Shown here: piece by piece, positions 23,256 to 32,126 of the stretch
Numbering within the stretch: the first letter of the stretch is position 1
Layout: the number at the start of each line of letters is the position of its first letter
DNA from: a virus
Reading direction: 5' to 3' (one strand)
Virus record (IMG/VR): IMGVR_UViG_3300027969_000063
Span: 1-64,000 of that record
DNA: 64,000 bases
Made by a program: the position numbers and the translations under genes
The notes under the pieces: model-generated
The model's input: the letters and a program-made list of their open reading frames with translations, nothing else
The model's database searches: none
Told to the model about the DNA's origin: nothing

Positions 23256-23842
23256 TATTTCACACTTTCAAAAATTTGTTTCTGTTCACTATACCACTTT
23301 TGCCAACCTTTCACCGTGTTGACTAACTCATAGTATGTACCATAATTTTCATTTACTGTTGTGAGGAGGTCAACTGCTTTAAAGTTGCTGGTTCCCGTAA
23401 TAGTTCCGATGGTGCTTGAGGGAACTTCGTTACGACTGGAACTGTTGTGCAGGCCAACAGCAATATTAGACAACTTACACTCATCAGTAATGTACTTAGT
23501 AATCGCTTTAGAATTTGCATTACTATTCTCCTTAATAATATTATTTTTTACATTAATTTCATATGCTAATTTTGTATTTGCTTGAGCAGATTGTGCTTCC
23601 GCTTTGGCAACTTTTAATTCCATTTCTTTTACTTTGGCCAACCAATCATTATTATTGCTTATACCACCTTCGAACCAAATGCCAATAACTAACATTATGA
23701 TAGAAACAATTTTAATTGGTGTTGTATATGTACCAACAAAAGGAATGTAACTGAAAAACGTGGCCGCAAGCAGACCTAAAATTGCAATAATAACAATTAA
23801 GTGAAATACAAAATCAGGTAATAAACTTAATAACCATATCAT
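23255..23842 (-). CDS. Membrane-anchored spanin-like protein (195 aa)
   Basis: Two or three N-terminal hydrophobic helices are followed by a coiled coil (about residues 68-100), then a domain with ECKLSNIAVGLHN and ending GWQKWYSEQKQIFESV, which recalls Rz/i-spanin proteins. Spanins fuse inner and outer membranes in the last lysis step. It overlaps the endolysin start. The spanin call is by analogy of layout. Confidence 0.65.
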   Translation of the reverse strand: MIWLLSLLPDFVFHLIVIIAILGLLAATFFSYIPFVGTYTTPIKIVSIIMLVIGIWFEGGISNNNDWLAKVKEMELKVAKAEAQSAQANTKLAYEINVKNNIIKENSNANSKAITKYITDECKLSNIAVGLHNSSSRNEVPSSTIGTITGTSNFKAVDLLTTVNENYGTYYELVNTVKGWQKWYSEQKQIFESVK

Positions 23843-24366
23843 TGTGGTGCCTTTCTACGAACATTCATCATAATAGGAGTATTATCTTTCTTTTTCTTTA
23901 GATAAACACCAGGTTCTCCACCCTTACCACCTGTACCAGCGATAGCGCCACCGCCAACAACATTAGTTGGTCCAGCAGAACCATCTTCTTTAAGCCTAGA
24001 ATGTTCTTTATCTAAATCTAAACGGCGTTGTTGAACTGCTTTTTGATCAACATCTTTATTTCTGGATAGGTCTTGCAATACTTTAGATTTTGATGCATAA
24101 TCTTTATGTGGATCCGCAGGATTTAATTTTGATTCTTTAACCGGCACACAGTTAGGAACTGTTCTACCATTCTTCTCTTTAGTGCCTACGGCAGTATAAC
24201 CTTTCCAACAAGCCGACTTTAAATCGCCTGTAGGTTGTTTAACTTTCTCTTCAATCTCTTCTTCTTTAACACAAGAATCTTTTGAAAATGCCTTCTTACC
24301 TGGAACAGGTTTATATCCTGTCCAGCAACGGCCTTTTTCATCCAAGTATTGTTTAAATTTTTTCAT
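23839..24366 (-). CDS. Virion-type protein with CTS-like N-terminus and CW-GY repeats (175 aa)
   Basis: The start at 24366 gives MKKFKQYLDE, which fits the T4 capsid-targeting pattern (MKxF/Y, hydrophobic at 7-8, Glu at 10). Two imperfect repeats follow, CWTGYKPVPGKKAF and CWKGYTAVGTKEKN, each ending in a Cys. The C-terminal half is Gly-rich and basic. Similar small Cys-repeat proteins occur in T4-like phages, function unknown. The TAATG junction links it to the next gene. Confidence 0.7.
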   Translation of the reverse strand: MKKFKQYLDEKGRCWTGYKPVPGKKAFSKDSCVKEEEIEEKVKQPTGDLKSACWKGYTAVGTKEKNGRTVPNCVPVKESKLNPADPHKDYASKSKVLQDLSRNKDVDQKAVQQRRLDLDKEHSRLKEDGSAGPTNVVGGGAIAGTGGKGGEPGVYLKKKKDNTPIMMNVRRKAPQ

Positions 24367-24848
24367 TAGCAGTTCCACTTTCTTAGTGCTAGTGCTTTGC
24401 GAGTTGGTTCACCATTTGGTTTTTTCATAGCACCTTCCATGCCACCCATGCGAGCACAGAATGATTTTCTACGATTAGCCGCTTTAGAACCTGGTTTTAA
24501 TTTAGATGGAGGTGTTGTGACAGCCATCGATAACTTGGAACCAGGATTTTCTCTACGATAAGAAGCAATACCTTTACGATTTAATCCGCCTTCAGGATTC
24601 TTACCTGCTTTTCTTTGCCACGCAGCAGATTCTTCTATTTGTTCTTTAATCCACTCATCGGGAGTTTTACCGTGTCTGGATACAAAATCGTTATGCAATT
24701 CTTTACCCGTAGTGTTACCTTTTTTAGATATATTCATCATCAATTTATTAATTGATTCATAATCATGATTATCTAATTTCTTTAAGCCTTTTTCTAAGGC
24801 GGTAACGTTACAGTAACTTTCTTCTACAAATTGTTTAAAAGATTTCAT
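24366..24848 (-). CDS. Virion-type protein with CTS-like N-terminus (DUF6321-like, 160 aa)
   Basis: Begins MKSFKQFVEE, again matching the capsid-targeting pattern. The C-terminal part contains GGLNRKGIASYRRENPGSK and RRKSFCARMGGM, which I associate with DUF6321 of large phages (from memory). A strongly basic protein ending RKWNC. DNA binding inside the head is plausible, not shown. Confidence 0.72.
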   Translation of the reverse strand: MKSFKQFVEESYCNVTALEKGLKKLDNHDYESINKLMMNISKKGNTTGKELHNDFVSRHGKTPDEWIKEQIEESAAWQRKAGKNPEGGLNRKGIASYRRENPGSKLSMAVTTPPSKLKPGSKAANRRKSFCARMGGMEGAMKKPNGEPTRKALALRKWNC

Positions 24849-25231
24849 AGTTGTCTTAACATTTCTGCAATGTGCATGTCTAAAGGTATCTCGTCTACCT
24901 TTATATTCTTTCCATTAATACCTTTTACTGTATCTGGTAAAACATTCAGATATAATAAAAAGGTTTTCAATATATCATAATCTCTTTCATCTATCCTATA
25001 GAATAGTATTCTTGTGGTCGCTTCTGGACCAAAAACATTATTCAATAGAATGATATGATTTAAAATCAATCGTTCTTTTAAAGCCTTAGTAACCTTGTAT
25101 CTACGAAACAATCTTTTTAAATATTTGGTCCTTTTCATGTCGCCTTCAAATTCCGACATGACACAATTAGGCGATTCGTAACACTTCATCGCAAATAATA
25201 AAAAATTGTCATCATTCAAATCATCAAACAT
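24845..25231 (-). CDS. Conserved T4-like phage protein (128 aa)
   Basis: Helical soluble protein with the segment LKTFLLYLNVLPDTVKGING. It resembles a conserved small protein of T4-like marine phages, without assigned function. ATGA overlap with the next gene. Confidence 0.7.
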   Translation of the reverse strand: MFDDLNDDNFLLFAMKCYESPNCVMSEFEGDMKRTKYLKRLFRRYKVTKALKERLILNHIILLNNVFGPEATTRILFYRIDERDYDILKTFLLYLNVLPDTVKGINGKNIKVDEIPLDMHIAEMLRQL

Positions 25232-25258
25232 ATTATTTTGTAAACCTATAAATTAGAA

Positions 25259-25286
25259 ACGGAGATATCAGTTAAGCTATCTCCGT
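25259..25286 (-). terminator. Rho-independent terminator after virion gene
   Basis: Nine perfect base pairs (ACGGAGATA / TATCTCCGT) around a 10-base loop, followed on the minus strand by TTTCTAATTT. It ends the strongly expressed-looking gene at 25313. Confidence 0.75.
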
Positions 25287-25312
25287 CTATATATCAACTT
25301 CAAATTTCAATA

Positions 25313-26188
25313 TTAAGCGTCTGGTAATGCAATATCGTCAGAACCATCACCAGTTGGATTAGCTAAAGCAACTAGAGTTTCATATTGAACACGGCCAGCA
25401 CGACCACCAGTTCCAACTCTCTTTATATTCCAGCCAACGTGTGCTGCATTTGTAAAACCAGAATCACTACCACCGGCTTGACCTAAACCTTTAATAGCAA
25501 TTGCTGTTGTTGCGGTTGAAGCAACTTTCTCAAAGTACTGAGCATTATTACCAGTACCGGTAATATTAACAGAGGCACCCTCAAGAGTTTCTGACACCTT
25601 GAATGCGTTAGCAGTTAAACCAGAGGCAATAACATAGTAGGTATTACCACTAGTTAATCCAGTAGCAGAAGCACCGCCACCGTTTTGATATACCACTTGG
25701 CTATTAGCAGTTAGTCCGTGCGTTGTGTAAGCAATAGTATCGGTACCAGTATTGATACCAGTAGTAGGGATTGTTACCCTAGCTTTTGGAATTGTTACAG
25801 TTGGAACTGTTTCATATGATGATCCAACATTGGTAACGACAATCTTTGTAACGACTCCACCAGAAATCGTTGCAGTAGCTGCAGCACTTGCGCCGCCTCC
25901 ACCAGAGAATGTTACGGTTGGTGCTTCCACATACAATGTACCACCATTGATGATGGAAACATCGGTAACATTATCGGAACCGGCAAATCTTTCGGTTGCA
26001 TCAACCAAAAATAGGCCAACGGTTTCATTGGTAATATAGGCACTAGGTGCAGTATTACCGTAAAGATAGGCTACGTTTGTAGCGTTAGGCGCAGCATTTA
26101 CTTTAGATGGTGCAGCTTTTGTGATTGTAGCATTTACAGCCCATTTTGGTGCGCTGGATGCTTGATCGACTTTTCCCCAAGATGACAT
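25313..26188 (-). CDS. Virion surface-type structural protein (291 aa)
   Basis: Rich in Gly, Ala, Thr, Val with beta repeats such as GGTLYVEAPTVTFSGGGG and VTNVGSSYETVPTV, typical of head decoration or fibre proteins of tailed phages. It has its own late-type promoter (CATAAATA, 26219-26226), a good ribosome site (AAAGGAGAA) and its own terminator, pointing to high late expression. The exact location on the particle is not inferable. Confidence 0.72.
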   Translation of the reverse strand: MSSWGKVDQASSAPKWAVNATITKAAPSKVNAAPNATNVAYLYGNTAPSAYITNETVGLFLVDATERFAGSDNVTDVSIINGGTLYVEAPTVTFSGGGGASAAATATISGGVVTKIVVTNVGSSYETVPTVTIPKARVTIPTTGINTGTDTIAYTTHGLTANSQVVYQNGGGASATGLTSGNTYYVIASGLTANAFKVSETLEGASVNITGTGNNAQYFEKVASTATTAIAIKGLGQAGGSDSGFTNAAHVGWNIKRVGTGGRAGRVQYETLVALANPTGDGSDDIALPDA

Positions 26189-26218
26189 TTTTTTCTCCTT
26201 TAATGTCTGTTTATATGT

Positions 26219-26226
26219 TATTTATG
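26219..26226 (-). promoter_or_regulatory. Late-promoter-like CATAAATA
   Basis: One base off TATAAATA, 30 bp ahead of the structural gene at 25313-26188. Confidence 0.5.
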
Positions 26227-27954
26227 TTAATTGCCCTTCTTACCAAACTCTTTATTGAACTGATTTTGGCCTGGTCTATTCTTCATCATAGGATCAATTT
26301 CCACCTCATCTCGCTTTTCACCAGTTAGTGTGGTTCCACCAGTCATTACTGCCAATGCTTCTGGTTTCTTTTCACCAAAACTATCTTTCTTATCGGTTTG
26401 ATTAAACTTAGGCTTTTTACCATAAGTCTGTACCGATTTATCTTCCTTTTCATGGTCATAGGTATCTTCCTTGACCATACCCTTACTCTTATATAAAGCC
26501 TTAATCATACGAGCAGATTTGGACCTCTGGCTTTTTATGCTGGTAGTTTCACCACCGTTGGCACCATCACATGGCGCTTGAGTTGCAGCCAAAGAATCTA
26601 GTGTATTCTCACTTGTTGGTTTGTAACCAGATAAACGGTCTAGAGCTCTATTCCAACTTTTAGAGCGAGTTTTGACTCTTTGGTTATGTGCCTTCTTATC
26701 CATACCTGGTTTTTTCTCAGGTACAACTGGTTGTTGTTTTAACCAAGAAAATACTGTGGATTTTTTGAGTTCATCCAATTGTTCAAATTCTTCATTCTGT
26801 TTACCATAGTAAGCACCCAAAGCCATTTTCTGACGTTCTTTTTTGGACTTACCAACAAACTTAGGATTATCTGAATGAATGAAATCATGGATCCAATCAC
26901 CAGCAGAAGCATCCTTACCTAGAACTTCATTAATCATTTGGTCGAGTTCTTCTTCATCTAACTCCACACCTTCTTTATTCAATAAAGCACGATGGTGTTG
27001 GTCAATCGGAATCTTATGTTTACGAATCAGAGCACCCAACATCTGTCTAGTTGTACTTTTTGTTGATGTTTTACCAATAGTAGATACTTTTTTGATAGCT
27101 GCATGGGCGGCTGAAGTGGCAGTAGGTTCATCAGAATCGATGGCCATAATATTCTTTAAATGCTTCTTAACAGTATCATGGTCTAATTGAGTCGGACCAT
27201 AAACTTCATCCAATTCAACTTCTTCTTTCAATTTTAATTCAGATTTTCTTTTACCAAAAGTCTTATGAACAAGAGTATCTAAGTTTTTATGAAATGATGT
27301 TTCTTTAGCCTTACTAATTCCTGCATCTTCTTTATTTAAATGTTTCTGTAAACGGTCAATAGCAGAAGTCATTCCACCGGAATTCTTTGCAAGATCGTCA
27401 TGTTTCTTTTGACGCTCATCGGATGCTTTACGAAATCTATCCAATGCACTTGGCTTTGGTTTTTTAACTGATTCGTTTACTTTTTCATTCTTACTAGTAA
27501 TGTAGTTACCAACAGTATCGATGTAATCTGTAGCCAAAGTTACTTTAGCTTGAACCCATGATGGCAATTGTTTTTCATAGTCCTTACCAATATGTGAACG
27601 AACCATATTAATAGCTCTTTCCATCTGTTCTAGTTGGCCTAAAACCATACTACCTTCATCATCTAACATATTACCCATGGCAATAGCAATGTGATTCTCT
27701 TTAACTACCTCTTCTGTGAATTCGTGGTCTCTTCTCCATTTCAAAAATTCACCAGATTTAGAATGTGCAATTTTAGTTTCTTTGGAAACAAAATTTGGAT
27801 TGATTCCTCTAGAATTCAGAAAACGATGTAACAACTCTTCTTCAGATGCTTCAGCAATACCAGACTTTGCCTGCCATGGATCCATTGGATTTACACCCAA
27901 AGGTTTAGCAGCAGGCGATTGATTGATGTTAACAACTTTTACTTTTCTTGACAT
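26227..27954 (-). CDS. Large charged virion-type protein with EEVELDE motifs (575 aa)
   Basis: Hydrophilic Lys/Glu-rich protein. Three related acidic motifs occur: EEVELDE, EGVELDE and EEFEQLDE, spaced through the middle. A segment KSKKERQKMALGAYYGKQNEE resembles modular segments of T4-like phage head or scaffold-associated proteins. It lies in the late operon behind the ligase-like gene. Function unknown; an internal head protein is the best guess. Confidence 0.7.
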   Translation of the reverse strand: MSRKVKVVNINQSPAAKPLGVNPMDPWQAKSGIAEASEEELLHRFLNSRGINPNFVSKETKIAHSKSGEFLKWRRDHEFTEEVVKENHIAIAMGNMLDDEGSMVLGQLEQMERAINMVRSHIGKDYEKQLPSWVQAKVTLATDYIDTVGNYITSKNEKVNESVKKPKPSALDRFRKASDERQKKHDDLAKNSGGMTSAIDRLQKHLNKEDAGISKAKETSFHKNLDTLVHKTFGKRKSELKLKEEVELDEVYGPTQLDHDTVKKHLKNIMAIDSDEPTATSAAHAAIKKVSTIGKTSTKSTTRQMLGALIRKHKIPIDQHHRALLNKEGVELDEEELDQMINEVLGKDASAGDWIHDFIHSDNPKFVGKSKKERQKMALGAYYGKQNEEFEQLDELKKSTVFSWLKQQPVVPEKKPGMDKKAHNQRVKTRSKSWNRALDRLSGYKPTSENTLDSLAATQAPCDGANGGETTSIKSQRSKSARMIKALYKSKGMVKEDTYDHEKEDKSVQTYGKKPKFNQTDKKDSFGEKKPEALAVMTGGTTLTGEKRDEVEIDPMMKNRPGQNQFNKEFGKKGN

Positions 27955-27965
27955 ATTATTACCTA

Positions 27966-29039
27966 TTATTTAATTTTGGTTTTGTCTTGAACTCTTTTCA
28001 AAGCTGATTTGGCCAGGTCACGAGCACGGCTCATTGGCGTATGAACTGCACCAGATTTATCTTTAGCATCCTTCTTCATTGGCTCCCAACCAGATGTTCC
28101 AGCAATAGTTGCTTCATGAACTTCATGTGATTTCATTGCAGGAGTTTTTTGTATTTTAACAGCTTCAGGAGTATCATCGCCTGGTTTACGTTCACCTTCT
28201 TTATCTAAAGGACTAACTTTTAGTTTATAAGATTTGAATGAATTGATTTTGCCTCCAGGCATACGACCAGCTAAAGTATCAGTTGTAATAGGAGCATCGT
28301 CACATTGTTTGTAATTTTCTTCATCCAACTCGACTTCTTCTTTTCTTACCATGTCAGTATCATCGCTAGATTTTCCTGGACGCTTATCCACAGGAGGTTT
28401 TGCATATGGTGATGGTTTACCACCATAATTAGTTATGGGTTTGCTGATCGGTTTCATTTTTAATTCATCAATACGTTCAACTTCTTCGTTACGAGCTTTA
28501 GCAAGGTTCTCGGGAGCAGAGATAGAATCTTTCTTAGGACCTTTAGCATCAGCCATAGTCAATGGTGTATCACCTTTTGCTTTACGGAGATAAGCGGGTA
28601 CATCAGACTTACGAACTGCTTCTAAGAGTTTACCAGCAAAATGCATGCCTTCGCTGACTTTCTTTTTACCTTTGAGAATTTTAAAATCTTGGCCATCAAT
28701 CTTATTGTTGTGGTTGGCATCAATCTTATGTTGATCACCTTTCAATTCTTCTTTTACCGGTTTATCAGCAATAGCCTTTTTCATTGGCTCTTTTTTGTTA
28801 CCATCTTTATCCATATCTAAGAAATCTGGCTTAGCACCTTCTTTCATCTCTTTAGCTTTTGGACCTTTAAGATTATCAACGGCAGATTTAGTTTGGTCTT
28901 TCTTTGCTTTAGCGGAATTACCATAACTTCCACCAAACACTCTCATTCCTGTAGGTGTAGGTTCTTTAATTGGTGCAGTTTCCACAACTTGGTTAACTGC
29001 ATCAATCATTGATTGACTTACTTTATCTTTTGCAAACAT
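27966..29039 (-). CDS. Charged virion-type protein with EEVELDE motifs (357 aa)
   Basis: Low-complexity Lys/Asp/Pro-rich protein. It carries the same acidic motifs as its neighbour (NEEVERIDE, KEEVELDE). A stretch DANHNNKIDGQDF looks like an EF-hand or dockerin-type calcium loop (DxNxNxxID). It probably belongs to the same head-internal group. Function unknown. Confidence 0.68.
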   Translation of the reverse strand: MFAKDKVSQSMIDAVNQVVETAPIKEPTPTGMRVFGGSYGNSAKAKKDQTKSAVDNLKGPKAKEMKEGAKPDFLDMDKDGNKKEPMKKAIADKPVKEELKGDQHKIDANHNNKIDGQDFKILKGKKKVSEGMHFAGKLLEAVRKSDVPAYLRKAKGDTPLTMADAKGPKKDSISAPENLAKARNEEVERIDELKMKPISKPITNYGGKPSPYAKPPVDKRPGKSSDDTDMVRKEEVELDEENYKQCDDAPITTDTLAGRMPGGKINSFKSYKLKVSPLDKEGERKPGDDTPEAVKIQKTPAMKSHEVHEATIAGTSGWEPMKKDAKDKSGAVHTPMSRARDLAKSALKRVQDKTKIK

Positions 29040-29041
29040 TT

Positions 29042-30883
29042 TTATTCTCCGTTTTTTTGCTTTTTTTTCTTCTTTAATAAATTATCTACACGAACTTTAT
29101 TATCAGCTGGTGTAACTAATGGTTCTTTATTTGTTGATCCGCCAAGAACTCCACCTACACCCATGTCACGGGCGCCTGGATCATCAATGGCCTCCGTTTT
29201 TATATTCTTTCTAAACTTCTTAAAATCTTTATTATCATAAGCACTACTCAATGGATTTACAGAACCACCAGAAGGCATTACTGTGGAAGCTGGACTTGCA
29301 TTACTGTAATCTATACTCTCACCTAATCCAGCACCACCAGTTAAACCACTACCATTGGTTCTTGTATTCCATTCTCCACCTAAACCTGATGGATCACTCG
29401 GTCTTGGATCAGATAATGTTCTGTTCTTCTTTACTTTTTCTTTGTCTTTGGAGAAGTTGCTTTCTTTGGGGCTTGGTCTCCAGCTGACTTTGGGCTGGCT
29501 TTCTTCGTAGGTGCGGAACGTGTAGCCGCCCGTTTTTTTGGTGCCGTCCCACTTGATGGTGTCACCGGCTGGATCGTTGGCTCGGTTGTCGGCTGGGATG
29601 TCGCTTGGTCGCTCTGCTCTTCCAACTTTGGTTTTCTGAATAAATCGATTAGTGCTTTTAACATTTTTTTCTTCCTTATATAAGTCAAAATTCATAACCA
29701 TTGGTTTATTATTTCTATGTAACCAATCATTAACGGTTTCATTTACCGATTTGCGATCCAAGAAGGATTCCGTCATTTGGTAAATTTCATGTATGTCACC
29801 ATCTTTACTATCTATGTCGCCTGTATTATCAAAGGAAACAAAATTTGTGAACATCTCATTGAAATATTTAGTGTTTTCTTGCGCTTTCAACCATTTATCT
29901 TGGCGTACAGATTCTACCATCATTCTAGACAATAGTGTGTTCCGTTCTTTACTGGCTTGATTGGTGGTATTGACAAACACCATTAGGGTTTCATAACCCA
30001 ATTCTTCTAGTTCTTCTCTTACATAAGAGAGTTTTTCTCTATCATCGGCAGGACCATTAATGATCAATGGACCACGATTACGAATGGCTTCTCTACGAAA
30101 ATCACTGGTTTTCTCTGATAACTTTTGTTTATCACCAAGGTAATCTCTGGCCTGTATCAGATTCAATTCAACGATACGAGCTTCAGCAATGGCTTCACGA
30201 ATGATAATATCTTTACCTGAACCAGGTCCACCAGTTACAAAGATTGCTTTAAAATGACCACGGGAAGTATCTTCATGTAGACCCATACCTTTACGAGTAT
30301 CATGCATTAATTCTTTTGAGTGCTTATCTGAAACATGAGAAGGAACACCCTTACGAAACTCTTTATGGTTGCCTGTGGAAGCGTGTTGGCGCATCTTAGT
30401 ACCAGACATACCTTCTGAACCTTCGGCATCCGGATCACGGTGACCAGCAGAATGTACAGTAATCTTTTTAAAGTTATACAAAGCACCTTTATGTGTACCA
30501 TTGTATTTGTTTAACTTTTCTTTCATTTCTTTAACACGGTCAGAACCAACAACCATATGTAAATGAGTTACACCGGATTTATGTAATTCGGTTGCATGGT
30601 GTAAAAATGTTGGATGTTCTTTAGAGGAAGTTTTGAAGTTTGTTCCTGGTGAATATCTTTGCAGGTGCTTCAATTTTTGTGCACCACTTAAAGGATTCTT
30701 TTTAGCGTCTTGTGAATGGGAAGCAACAACTGTGTGACCAGCATTGTGTTCTTTTGCTACCTCTTTTACTTTATCAATTAACTTTAAATGGCCGGTTGTG
30801 GGAGGATTCATGCGACCAAAGGTCATAACATGGTGGTTTTCACCTTGTTTGGTTTCTTCGACTAGTTCTAAGAATGATTTCAT
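29042..30883 (-). CDS. Nucleotidyltransferase (NMNAT-like) and P-loop kinase fusion (613 aa)
   Basis: Residues 23-32, GRMNPPTTGH, are the nucleotide-binding HxGH-type motif of adenylyltransferases, and MSGTKMR (159-165) the matching SxTxxR motif. A Walker A, GGPGSGKD (218-225), starts a kinase domain. This order, NMN adenylyltransferase then kinase, resembles NadR-type NAD salvage enzymes. The N-terminal ten residues, MKSFLELVEE, match the T4 capsid-targeting pattern. The C-terminal 200 residues are low complexity and hold another gene in a different frame. The substrate is inferred only. Confidence 0.78.
   Translation of the reverse strand: MKSFLELVEETKQGENHHVMTFGRMNPPTTGHLKLIDKVKEVAKEHNAGHTVVASHSQDAKKNPLSGAQKLKHLQRYSPGTNFKTSSKEHPTFLHHATELHKSGVTHLHMVVGSDRVKEMKEKLNKYNGTHKGALYNFKKITVHSAGHRDPDAEGSEGMSGTKMRQHASTGNHKEFRKGVPSHVSDKHSKELMHDTRKGMGLHEDTSRGHFKAIFVTGGPGSGKDIIIREAIAEARIVELNLIQARDYLGDKQKLSEKTSDFRREAIRNRGPLIINGPADDREKLSYVREELEELGYETLMVFVNTTNQASKERNTLLSRMMVESVRQDKWLKAQENTKYFNEMFTNFVSFDNTGDIDSKDGDIHEIYQMTESFLDRKSVNETVNDWLHRNNKPMVMNFDLYKEEKNVKSTNRFIQKTKVGRAERPSDIPADNRANDPAGDTIKWDGTKKTGGYTFRTYEESQPKVSWRPSPKESNFSKDKEKVKKNRTLSDPRPSDPSGLGGEWNTRTNGSGLTGGAGLGESIDYSNASPASTVMPSGGSVNPLSSAYDNKDFKKFRKNIKTEAIDDPGARDMGVGGVLGGSTNKEPLVTPADNKVRVDNLLKKKKKQKNGE
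29431..29664 (-). CDS. Nested basic Pro/Ala/Lys-rich protein in another frame (77 aa)
   Basis: This frame lies wholly inside the NMNAT-kinase gene (its residues about 407-484). The ATG has AAGGAAG eight bases upstream. The product begins MLKALIDLFRKPKLEE and continues as Thr/Pro/Ala/Lys-rich sequence with KKAxxK repeats, like histone-type or head-internal proteins. The local base composition is more GC-rich than the surroundings. Expression is not proven. Confidence 0.55.
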   Translation of the reverse strand: MLKALIDLFRKPKLEEQSDQATSQPTTEPTIQPVTPSSGTAPKKRAATRSAPTKKASPKSAGDQAPKKATSPKTKKK

Positions 30884-32073
30884 TTACGAACTTTTAAAAG
30901 ATTCTGTTTAGCAAACTCAGCACGGTTAACCAATTTAGTTGGCTGATTATCGTGATGAACTACGAAACCTTCGGGTTTGGACTTCTTACCTTCAATGTGG
31001 TGTTGGTAGTGTCCTTCATGTGTTTCTAATGATTTAACTAAAGCATTTTTTGCTTGGTGTAAATGATGGTGCATTGAGAATAAGTTGCTATAATGTTCTT
31101 TGTGTTTTTCAACATGAGCAATTTGTTTTTTACCTTCGCCAGTTTTTTCAGCCTTAGATTTTTCAGTTGAAACTTTGGCAGCCAGCTTTTCGTGTATATT
31201 GTGTAAATGTTTTTTAAAACCCTCGACACTTGGCACTTCATCATGTCTTACAGTATGGTTTATGTATGTTGATAGGTGGCCATGTTCACCGCTATGTTTT
31301 GGATGAATTGCGTTATACATTTTGTGACCGTGAGTATCGTGAATTTCTTTTGCTGCAGCCATGTGTTTATGAAATTCTTTTTTGTTGGCTTCAGAATGTT
31401 GTACTTTACTGGTATCATGTTCTGCGCCATGAATATGGACATCCGGATGTTGTTTAAATTTACTCACATCTACATGAGGCGAAGCATGCTTCATGTCATC
31501 ACTATACTGGTGGTGAACCACTACACCAACTTTAGATTTTTTAATCTTTTTTGCCTCATCACCGTGAGCAGTATAGGTAATTGTGTTCGGTGTAAATGAT
31601 ACTTTACCTTCTTTAGCTTCTACGATGTAACCTTCATTTAACTTACCACTATCTTGGTGGTGCATTAAATCGCCTTGATAAACACCGTGTTTAGGTGTTA
31701 CTTTTGGTAAATGTTTAAGTGCGTGTTTGAGTGCTCTGGCTAAACCAGGAGCGTGACCGTGGTTTCTTTCAATATCTTTTTCTGTGTGATTAATCTTTGG
31801 ATTCTTGTTAAAGGCAGATTTGGTCGCCACAAAGAATTTACCATTCTTAGGATGATGGCCAAATACAATCGATGGAGAACCATCATACTTCATTGTCAGA
31901 TTTGTATTCTTGTGGCCGCCGGTCATGTGAGCATGGGCTTTCATTAGAGCTTCATGAGCATGTTCAAAACCAGCATGGCCGTGCATCAGAGGTCTATCTT
32001 CGGCATGATGGATATGCTTGAGTTCGGAACTTTTTTCCGTTTCTTCCGTTAGGAATGATCTAAATGATAACAT
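30880..32073 (-). CDS. His-rich nucleotidyltransferase/ligase-like virion protein (397 aa)
   Basis: Start at 32073 (AGAGGAAA upstream). Residues 62-67, KYDGSP, match motif I of covalent nucleotidyltransferases (DNA/RNA ligases), and near residue 368 EGFVV followed by KLV resembles motifs IV and V. The first ten residues MLSFRSFLTE fit the capsid-targeting pattern. The protein is remarkably His-rich. It follows a perfect late promoter (32119-32126). A ligase activity is inferred from motifs and not certain. Confidence 0.7.
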   Translation of the reverse strand: MLSFRSFLTEETEKSSELKHIHHAEDRPLMHGHAGFEHAHEALMKAHAHMTGGHKNTNLTMKYDGSPSIVFGHHPKNGKFFVATKSAFNKNPKINHTEKDIERNHGHAPGLARALKHALKHLPKVTPKHGVYQGDLMHHQDSGKLNEGYIVEAKEGKVSFTPNTITYTAHGDEAKKIKKSKVGVVVHHQYSDDMKHASPHVDVSKFKQHPDVHIHGAEHDTSKVQHSEANKKEFHKHMAAAKEIHDTHGHKMYNAIHPKHSGEHGHLSTYINHTVRHDEVPSVEGFKKHLHNIHEKLAAKVSTEKSKAEKTGEGKKQIAHVEKHKEHYSNLFSMHHHLHQAKNALVKSLETHEGHYQHHIEGKKSKPEGFVVHHDNQPTKLVNRAEFAKQNLLKVRK

Positions 32074-32118: not shown

Positions 32119-32126
32119 TATTTATA
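32119..32126 (-). promoter_or_regulatory. T4-type late promoter TATAAATA
   Basis: Exact TATAAATA on the minus strand in the intergenic gap, about 45 bp before the ATG at 32073. It probably drives the virion operon 30880 down to 26227. Confidence 0.75.

Follow-up and report, generated by a model that had tools for sequence, protein, structure and literature searches.

Four proteins encoded on the minus strand of a T4-like phage begin with a ten-residue leader that is very likely (probability about 0.9) a capsid-targeting sequence (CTS) of the type borne by the internal proteins (IPs) of phage T4; the packaging role is well supported, while for the four proteins of this phage it is inferred, without virion data. 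The analyzed window comprises bases 1-64000 of a virus record 105,516 bases long, and its relevant features are collected in Table 1. The initial annotation had reported these four N-termini and described in them an aromatic residue at position 4, hydrophobic residues at 7-8 and Glu at 10; each N-terminus is indeed present at its start on the minus strand and the pattern holds in all four. Residue 4 is always Phe and residue 10 always Glu, and residues 7-8 read YL, FV, LV and FL in the order of Table 1. At residues 8-10 two leaders offer an exact [LI]-x-E motif (LDE, LTE), and the other two have VEE, a conservative variant whose Val8 is present in 11% of the leaders of relatives.

Table 1. Features of the 64,000-base window that bear on the leader sequences
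Feature	Position	Strand	Remarks
Leader MKKFKQYLDE	24337..24366	-	N-terminus of 175-aa VPNCVP-module protein, ATG 24366
Leader MKSFKQFVEE	24819..24848	-	N-terminus of 160-aa DUF6321 protein, ATG 24848
Leader MKSFLELVEE	30854..30883	-	N-terminus of 613-aa nucleotidyltransferase-kinase, ATG 30883
Leader MLSFRSFLTE	32044..32073	-	N-terminus of 397-aa DUF6267 protein, ATG 32073
175-aa protein	23839..24366	-	VPNCVP-type module; basic (22% K+R); PHROG matches
DUF6321 protein, 160 aa	24366..24848	-	PF19846, E=6.1e-22; basic (21% K+R)
575-aa neighbor without leader	26227..27954	-	3 [LI]DE sites, top count in genome
357-aa neighbor without leader	27966..29039	-	2 [LI]DE sites, among highest in genome
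613-aa protein	29042..30883	-	HxGH nucleotidyltransferase, P-loop kinase and low-complexity tail; PF01467, phrog_3041
DUF6267 protein, 397 aa	30880..32073	-	PF19782, E=1.1e-94
TATAAATA	32119..32126	-	T4-type late promoter -10 element, 53 nt upstream of DUF6267 ATG

In-frame GTG codons lie shortly upstream of two of the ATGs (24378 and 32100) and the longest ORFs begin there; the ATG starts are preferred because AGAGGAAA stands immediately 5' of the ATG at 32073 and the other three genes each overlap their upstream gene. A search with the strict pattern M..[FYW]..[FYLIMW][LIVMAF].E in all six frames of the 105,516-base record recovered at plausible starts only the four leaders, and elsewhere two internal starts within other ORFs. 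Similarly, a weight matrix placed the four at ranks 1-4 of 2398 possible starts in the whole record (scores 17.4-23.2), the best-scoring start after them being an internal TTG (10.3). Simple homology among the four tagged proteins was ruled out by their differing Pfam and PHROG assignments; the two small ones (starts 24366 and 24848) do have some PHROG modules in common.

Relatives retrieved with the DUF6267 and 613-aa proteins amounted to 157 IMG/VR loci (1.77 Mb), in which the pattern occurs at the start of 293 of 2061 genes. Sixty position-permuted control patterns gave a mean of 1.45 (sd 3.5, max 27), ruling out a chance origin of the tag. Of the matching windows, 314 lie within the first 45 residues, as against 26 at internal and 2 at C-terminal positions, even though internal windows are more than four times as numerous. 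The carriers form 30 coverage clusters, namely DUF6267 (121), the nucleotidyltransferase-kinase (46), DUF6321 (37) and numerous small clusters that include an adenylate kinase (PF00406, E=4.2e-44), a HAD/PNK-phosphatase-like protein and a 5'-nucleotidase-like protein. Since at least one cluster (UvsX-like, FAM 28) is likely due to chance and certain others represent pieces of a single family, only about 25-30 families are claimed; the check suggested by the initial annotation, whether in related phages the leader moves among unrelated proteins, is hence positive. In loci anchored on DUF6267 the carriers lie mostly at -3 to +9 kb, and none of the 450 genes at -4 to -9 kb is a carrier. Given that selection by the pattern itself fixes residues 4, 7, 8 and 10, conservation was re-measured with pattern-blind starts. 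In DUF6267 these yielded entropies of 0.96, 1.07, 1.17 and 1.12 bits at the four residues, compared with 2.2-3.3 bits at the remaining residues of 2-16, and DUF6321 is likewise conserved at residues 4, 7 and 10.

An alternative explanation for these observations would be that the resemblance stems from inherited homology or a translation-level sequence, with no function of the peptide itself. In its favor, three families supply most of the matches, and the match counts are therefore not independent. Against it, the tag is common to unrelated families and only N-terminal, and conservation falls directly after residue 10. Moreover, synonymous codons vary at the fixed leader residues, which indicates that selection acts on the peptide and rules out an RNA-level element. 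This alternative is all but excluded, and the tag, its conservation and its modularity can be taken as shown. A C-terminal version of the tag, an idea that came from the ends of S-SCSM1 gene 93 (TFKEFLEYIE) and S-CREM2 ORF12 (KTFRDFLN), was rejected as not enriched (12 observed versus 42 expected). Only weak versions are seen in HTVC008M, where the cytidylyltransferase begins with MKTLKELLRK and the DUF6267 protein (L005:14819-16051) with MYNDLLVE. The latter keeps the aromatic-x-x-L-L-x-E spacing intact with the first two residues missing, and the minimal signal might thus conceivably be shorter than ten residues. The tag was absent from the equivalent region of S-PM2, which is a weak negative control because its proteome also missed true structural proteins.

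Suppressor genetics of T4 IPIII assigned residues 4 and 7 to targeting and residues 8 and 10 to processing, and the cleavage motif of gp21 is L/I-x-E (PMC9026906). The coincidence of the conserved residues 4, 7, 8 and 10 with these targeting and processing residues is the reason for reading the tag as a T4-type signal. Scoring 3052 T4 starts with the environmental-leader matrix gave ranks 2-4 to IPIII and IPII (14.1) and IPI (8.0). The top rank went to gp61.1 (MKTFKEFIKE), a T4 protein of 54 aa and unknown function (L170:18966-19130, NC_000866, minus strand), which outscores IPII and IPIII and, by its leader-matrix score, could possibly be an unrecognized T4 internal protein. Another matrix was trained only on 39 leaders of 19 families filtered as unrelated to the four of the window; it still returned the latter at ranks 1-4 and the T4 IPs at ranks 2-4, and on S-CREM2 ranks 1-4 of 4800 starts were four virion proteins. 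Its training set includes one MKSFKQFVEE, the same sequence as a leader of the window, and the lowest-ranked of the four proteins scored barely above the start that follows it (10.7 versus 10.6). The injected T4 enzyme Alt is without the tag (leader-matrix score -6.6), implying that the tag is not the only packaging route. The equivalence to the T4 signal is regarded as shown, and the T4-type capsid-targeting reading put forward in the initial annotation is supported by the conserved residues, the recovery of the T4 IPs by the matrix and the virion mass spectrometry of relatives (see below); packaging in this phage, cutting at Glu10 and injection remain inferred.

The same genome possesses a T4-like gene set at ~64-75 kb, comprising gp23, gp22, gp21, gp20, tail tube, sheath and terminase, where the names of gp22, gp20 and the tail genes rest only on reading and position. 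That a gp21-type prohead protease is encoded is shown by a match to Peptidase_S77 (E=2.0e-32) and also to the T4 gp21 structure 5jbl. The PDB contains T4 gp23 chains in both full-length and mature form, and from their difference of 65 residues the gp23 cut can be placed in AFGSFLTE/AEIGG (the slash marking the cut). The cleavage site FLTE of T4 gp23 is identical to the last four letters of the DUF6267 leader, in which the predicted cut is after Glu10 (FLTE/E); on alignment with T4 gp23, the gp23 of this phage displays QALNE/TSSDG, a site of similar type, opposite FLTE/AEIGG. Cleavage after Glu10 is a likely inference. The tagged genes belong to a single series on the minus strand, in which neighbors overlap or are separated by short gaps and which ends in spanin-like and endolysin-like genes. 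A T4-type late promoter element, TATAAATA, is present upstream of the DUF6267 gene (Table 1). The element occurs 5 times in the window against 9 expected by chance and 7 times in the 105.5-kb record, one of the other copies preceding the gp22 scaffold gene by 36 nt; a trial of CTAAATA as a different late-promoter motif was uninformative.

It could alternatively be proposed that the ten residues dock to a partner outside the head, with the tail, the replisome and the late transcription machinery as candidates, and in relatives the block does lie near uvsX, gp41, primase and nrd genes, outside the head module. However, the T4 capsid signal is defined by the same residues, the matrix retrieves the T4 IPs, tagged proteins occur in virions, and the strict pattern was not found at plausible starts of any tail or replication gene in the whole record. 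Docking outside the head is accordingly judged very unlikely.

Published virion proteomes of cyanophages provide evidence on the presence of tagged proteins in particles. The virion list published for S-CREM2 names 52 proteins (PMC10665884). When all 219 annotated proteins of this phage were scored, the five ranked highest were without exception on that list (hypergeometric p = 6.5e-4): the cytidylyltransferase ORF154, the SAM hydrolase ORF6, the APH-like kinase ORF14, ORF136 and ORF13. After the fifth protein the score drops from 8.1 to 1.9, and by annotation four of the five lie outside the families dominating matrix training. The Cas9-like virion protein ORF12 of the same phage (L167:7704-10313) lacks the leader at its annotated start, the core of the leader, RFASFMAE, being present at residues 18-25. 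In S-SM1 the sole high score is that of the cytidylyltransferase GC190 (15.8; next 7.6), which was detected in virions (PMC3037559); the tag is absent from the virion-detected GC15 and GC969, and it thus marks just a subset of virion proteins, as would be expected. The top score in S-SCSM1 belongs to the NMNAT ORF91 (25.6), found in virions (PMC9602691), around which genes 89, 90, 92, 93, 95 and 97 are virion-annotated and untagged. As a side observation, 7 of the 10 genes 89-98 (L178:6358-13713) are virion-annotated by mass spectrometry and only the NMNAT has the leader. The second annotated carrier of this phage, ORF30 (106 aa, L179:44215-44535), has a strong leader, MKTFKQFMSE, and is near virion-protein genes; it was not detected or annotated as a virion protein, and might perhaps be too small for detection. 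Seven of the eight predicted carriers for which virion data exist, all in relatives, have thus been found (S-CREM2 5/5, S-SM1 1/1, S-SCSM1 1/2).

The authors of the S-CREM2 and S-SCSM1 studies raised the possibility of carried-over cytoplasmic proteins in CsCl preparations (PMC10665884, PMC9602691), and the detection of tagged enzymes could accordingly be attributed to contamination, with the tag having no role in packaging them. This is very unlikely, because in S-CREM2 all five proteins selected by the tag were detected whereas polymerase, helicase and ribonucleotide reductase are off the virion list, and because the independent preparations of S-SM1, S-SCSM1 and S-CREM2 concur.

As for the cargo, the DUF6267 protein displays KYDG (KxDG type), QGD, PEG-V and K..R motifs that are kept in 38 relatives, in which K62, D64, G65, E368, G369 and K380 are invariant. 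In its AlphaFold2 model (mean pLDDT 87.5) residues 1-18 have pLDDT below 50, whereby the leader is interpreted as a detached tail. The top PDB fold matches are to archaeal ATP-dependent DNA ligases and are weak (E 0.03-0.05, low TM), and a PDB sequence search gave no meaningful match. Based on the conserved motifs and the weak fold match this protein is likely, though not proven, to be a diverged ligase-like nucleotidyltransferase. Analysis of the 613-aa protein recovered PF01467 (E=1.1e-6, over the cut-off) and the phrog_3041 cytidyltransferase family (E=6.9e-67), along with both an HxGH-type motif (TTGH) and an SxTxxR-type motif (SGTKMR). These motifs and PF01467 establish it as a cytidylyltransferase/NMNAT-like protein; NMNAT activity and the substrate are only inferred. 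Its fold matches include an ATP sulfurylase with a fused kinase and polynucleotide and adenylate kinases; as the model has a pTM of 0.50, they speak for the domains and not for their arrangement, and a PDB sequence search again returned no meaningful match. The earlier claim that two of the four proteins are enzymes hence held for the NMNAT-like/kinase protein, the DUF6267 protein being only probably ligase-like. Homologs of the DUF6321 protein are annotated as 'structural protein' in S-P4 and RB11-B, and the 175-aa protein belongs to no Pfam family, its PHROG matches being to portions of larger phage proteins. The 575- and 357-aa neighbors without leaders could be core proteins cut by gp21, a possibility inferred from their [LI]DE sites. 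In the same block, a 291-aa protein (25313-26188) has a repeat-like region common to head-closure, baseplate and other virion structural PHROGs.

A further rival explanation accepts that the leader targets the prohead core and holds that the proteins act in assembly only, without being delivered as active enzymes. This is compatible with the fate of the T4 core proteins, which are cleaved into pieces that are largely lost from the head (PMC9026906), with the small, basic nature of two cargo proteins that are without a recognized enzyme fold, and with the richness of the neighboring proteins in [LI]DE sites. Nevertheless, it appears unlikely, as carriers have intact enzyme motifs (the HxGH and P-loop of the NMNAT-like protein, adenylate kinase) and in S-CREM2 include a SAM hydrolase and an APH-like kinase; such enzymes are without an evident assembly role and are retained in mature virions.

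Under the preferred reading of a T4-type capsid-targeting sequence, the late operon would be transcribed along with the head genes, and the nascent tagged protein would attach to the gp22-type scaffold core through Phe4 and the hydrophobic residue 7 and be enclosed in the prohead. The gp21-type protease would then cut after Glu10 ([LIV]-x-E), freeing the mature protein among the packaged DNA, with which it would enter the next host. The tag is modular, with the NMNAT-like nucleotidyltransferase-kinase, the ligase-like DUF6267 protein and the two small basic proteins as unrelated cargo. Injection as active proteins is inferred, with the balance of evidence leaning slightly in its favor, and a function of the cargo early, before phage gene expression, is likewise an inference. 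One such function might be NAD supply by the NMNAT-like and small-molecule kinase domains, a proposal we make tentatively and with the odds slightly against it; another possible one is the repair of nucleic acid ends by the polynucleotide-kinase-like domain beside the ligase-like protein. Present evidence does not separate the two.

The signal is known from T-even phages, in which many ip genes were discovered through it (PMC12373910; PMC3012670). A full-text search found no literature linking it to aquatic phages, 'capsid targeting' and 'cyanophage' co-occurring only in a T4 review; subscription journals and preprints were outside its scope. What is new here is the presence of this known tag on large enzymes and a far wider range of cargo. 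This extends a signal of enteric T-even phages to enzymes and to viruses that abound in marine and fresh waters, and provides a sequence rule predicting from the genome alone which proteins uncultured aquatic T4-like phages carry in the particle. It would also explain why cyanophage virions have repeatedly yielded NMNAT-like enzymes, kinases and SAM hydrolase, detections that earlier authors were unable to tell from contamination. If injection holds, phage-borne NAD and nucleic-acid enzymes would be present in the first minutes of infection. A bolder reading, at present only marginally more likely than not, is that aquatic T4-like phages have a general protein-delivery system based on a ten-residue head-loading tag across dozens of families. 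If so, their particles would bring in NMNAT-like/kinase, ligase-like, adenylate kinase, nucleotidase, phosphatase and SAM hydrolase enzymes whose action would precede all phage gene expression, restoring NAD or mending nucleic acid ends in the face of host defenses being examples.

Among known systems, the closest is the CTS of T4 IPI, IPII and IPIII, with which the tag has in common its position and length, the aromatic residue 4, aromatic or hydrophobic residue 7, hydrophobic residue 8 and Glu10, as well as a gp21-type protease in the same genome, a late promoter and non-homologous cargo. It differs in that large enzymes (397 and 613 aa) are among its cargo, as opposed to T4 precursors of 95-193 aa, Phe4 is favored over the Tyr4 of IPII and IPIII, the genes form one late operon ending in lysis genes, and the relatives of this phage infect aquatic bacteria. 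The injected ADP-ribosyltransferase Alt of T4 is likewise a head-packaged, gp21-processed enzyme, but has no such tag. DarB of P1, a large antirestriction protein, is comparable in that it is taken into the head by means of an N-terminal signal (PMC9024508), a parallel drawn without sequence comparison; P1 is, however, another type of phage, and there the first 30 residues were shown to be sufficient (PMC9024508). Finally, the NMNAT-like proteins of S-SM1, S-SCSM1, S-CREM2 and S-CBWM1 are homologous enzymes reported in virions, with the genes of S-SM1 and S-SCSM1 in an equivalent genome place, whereas the protein of the window has an extra kinase domain. The papers on these cyanophage enzymes offer no packaging mechanism, and the tag, seen in S-SM1, S-SCSM1 and S-CREM2, supplies one.
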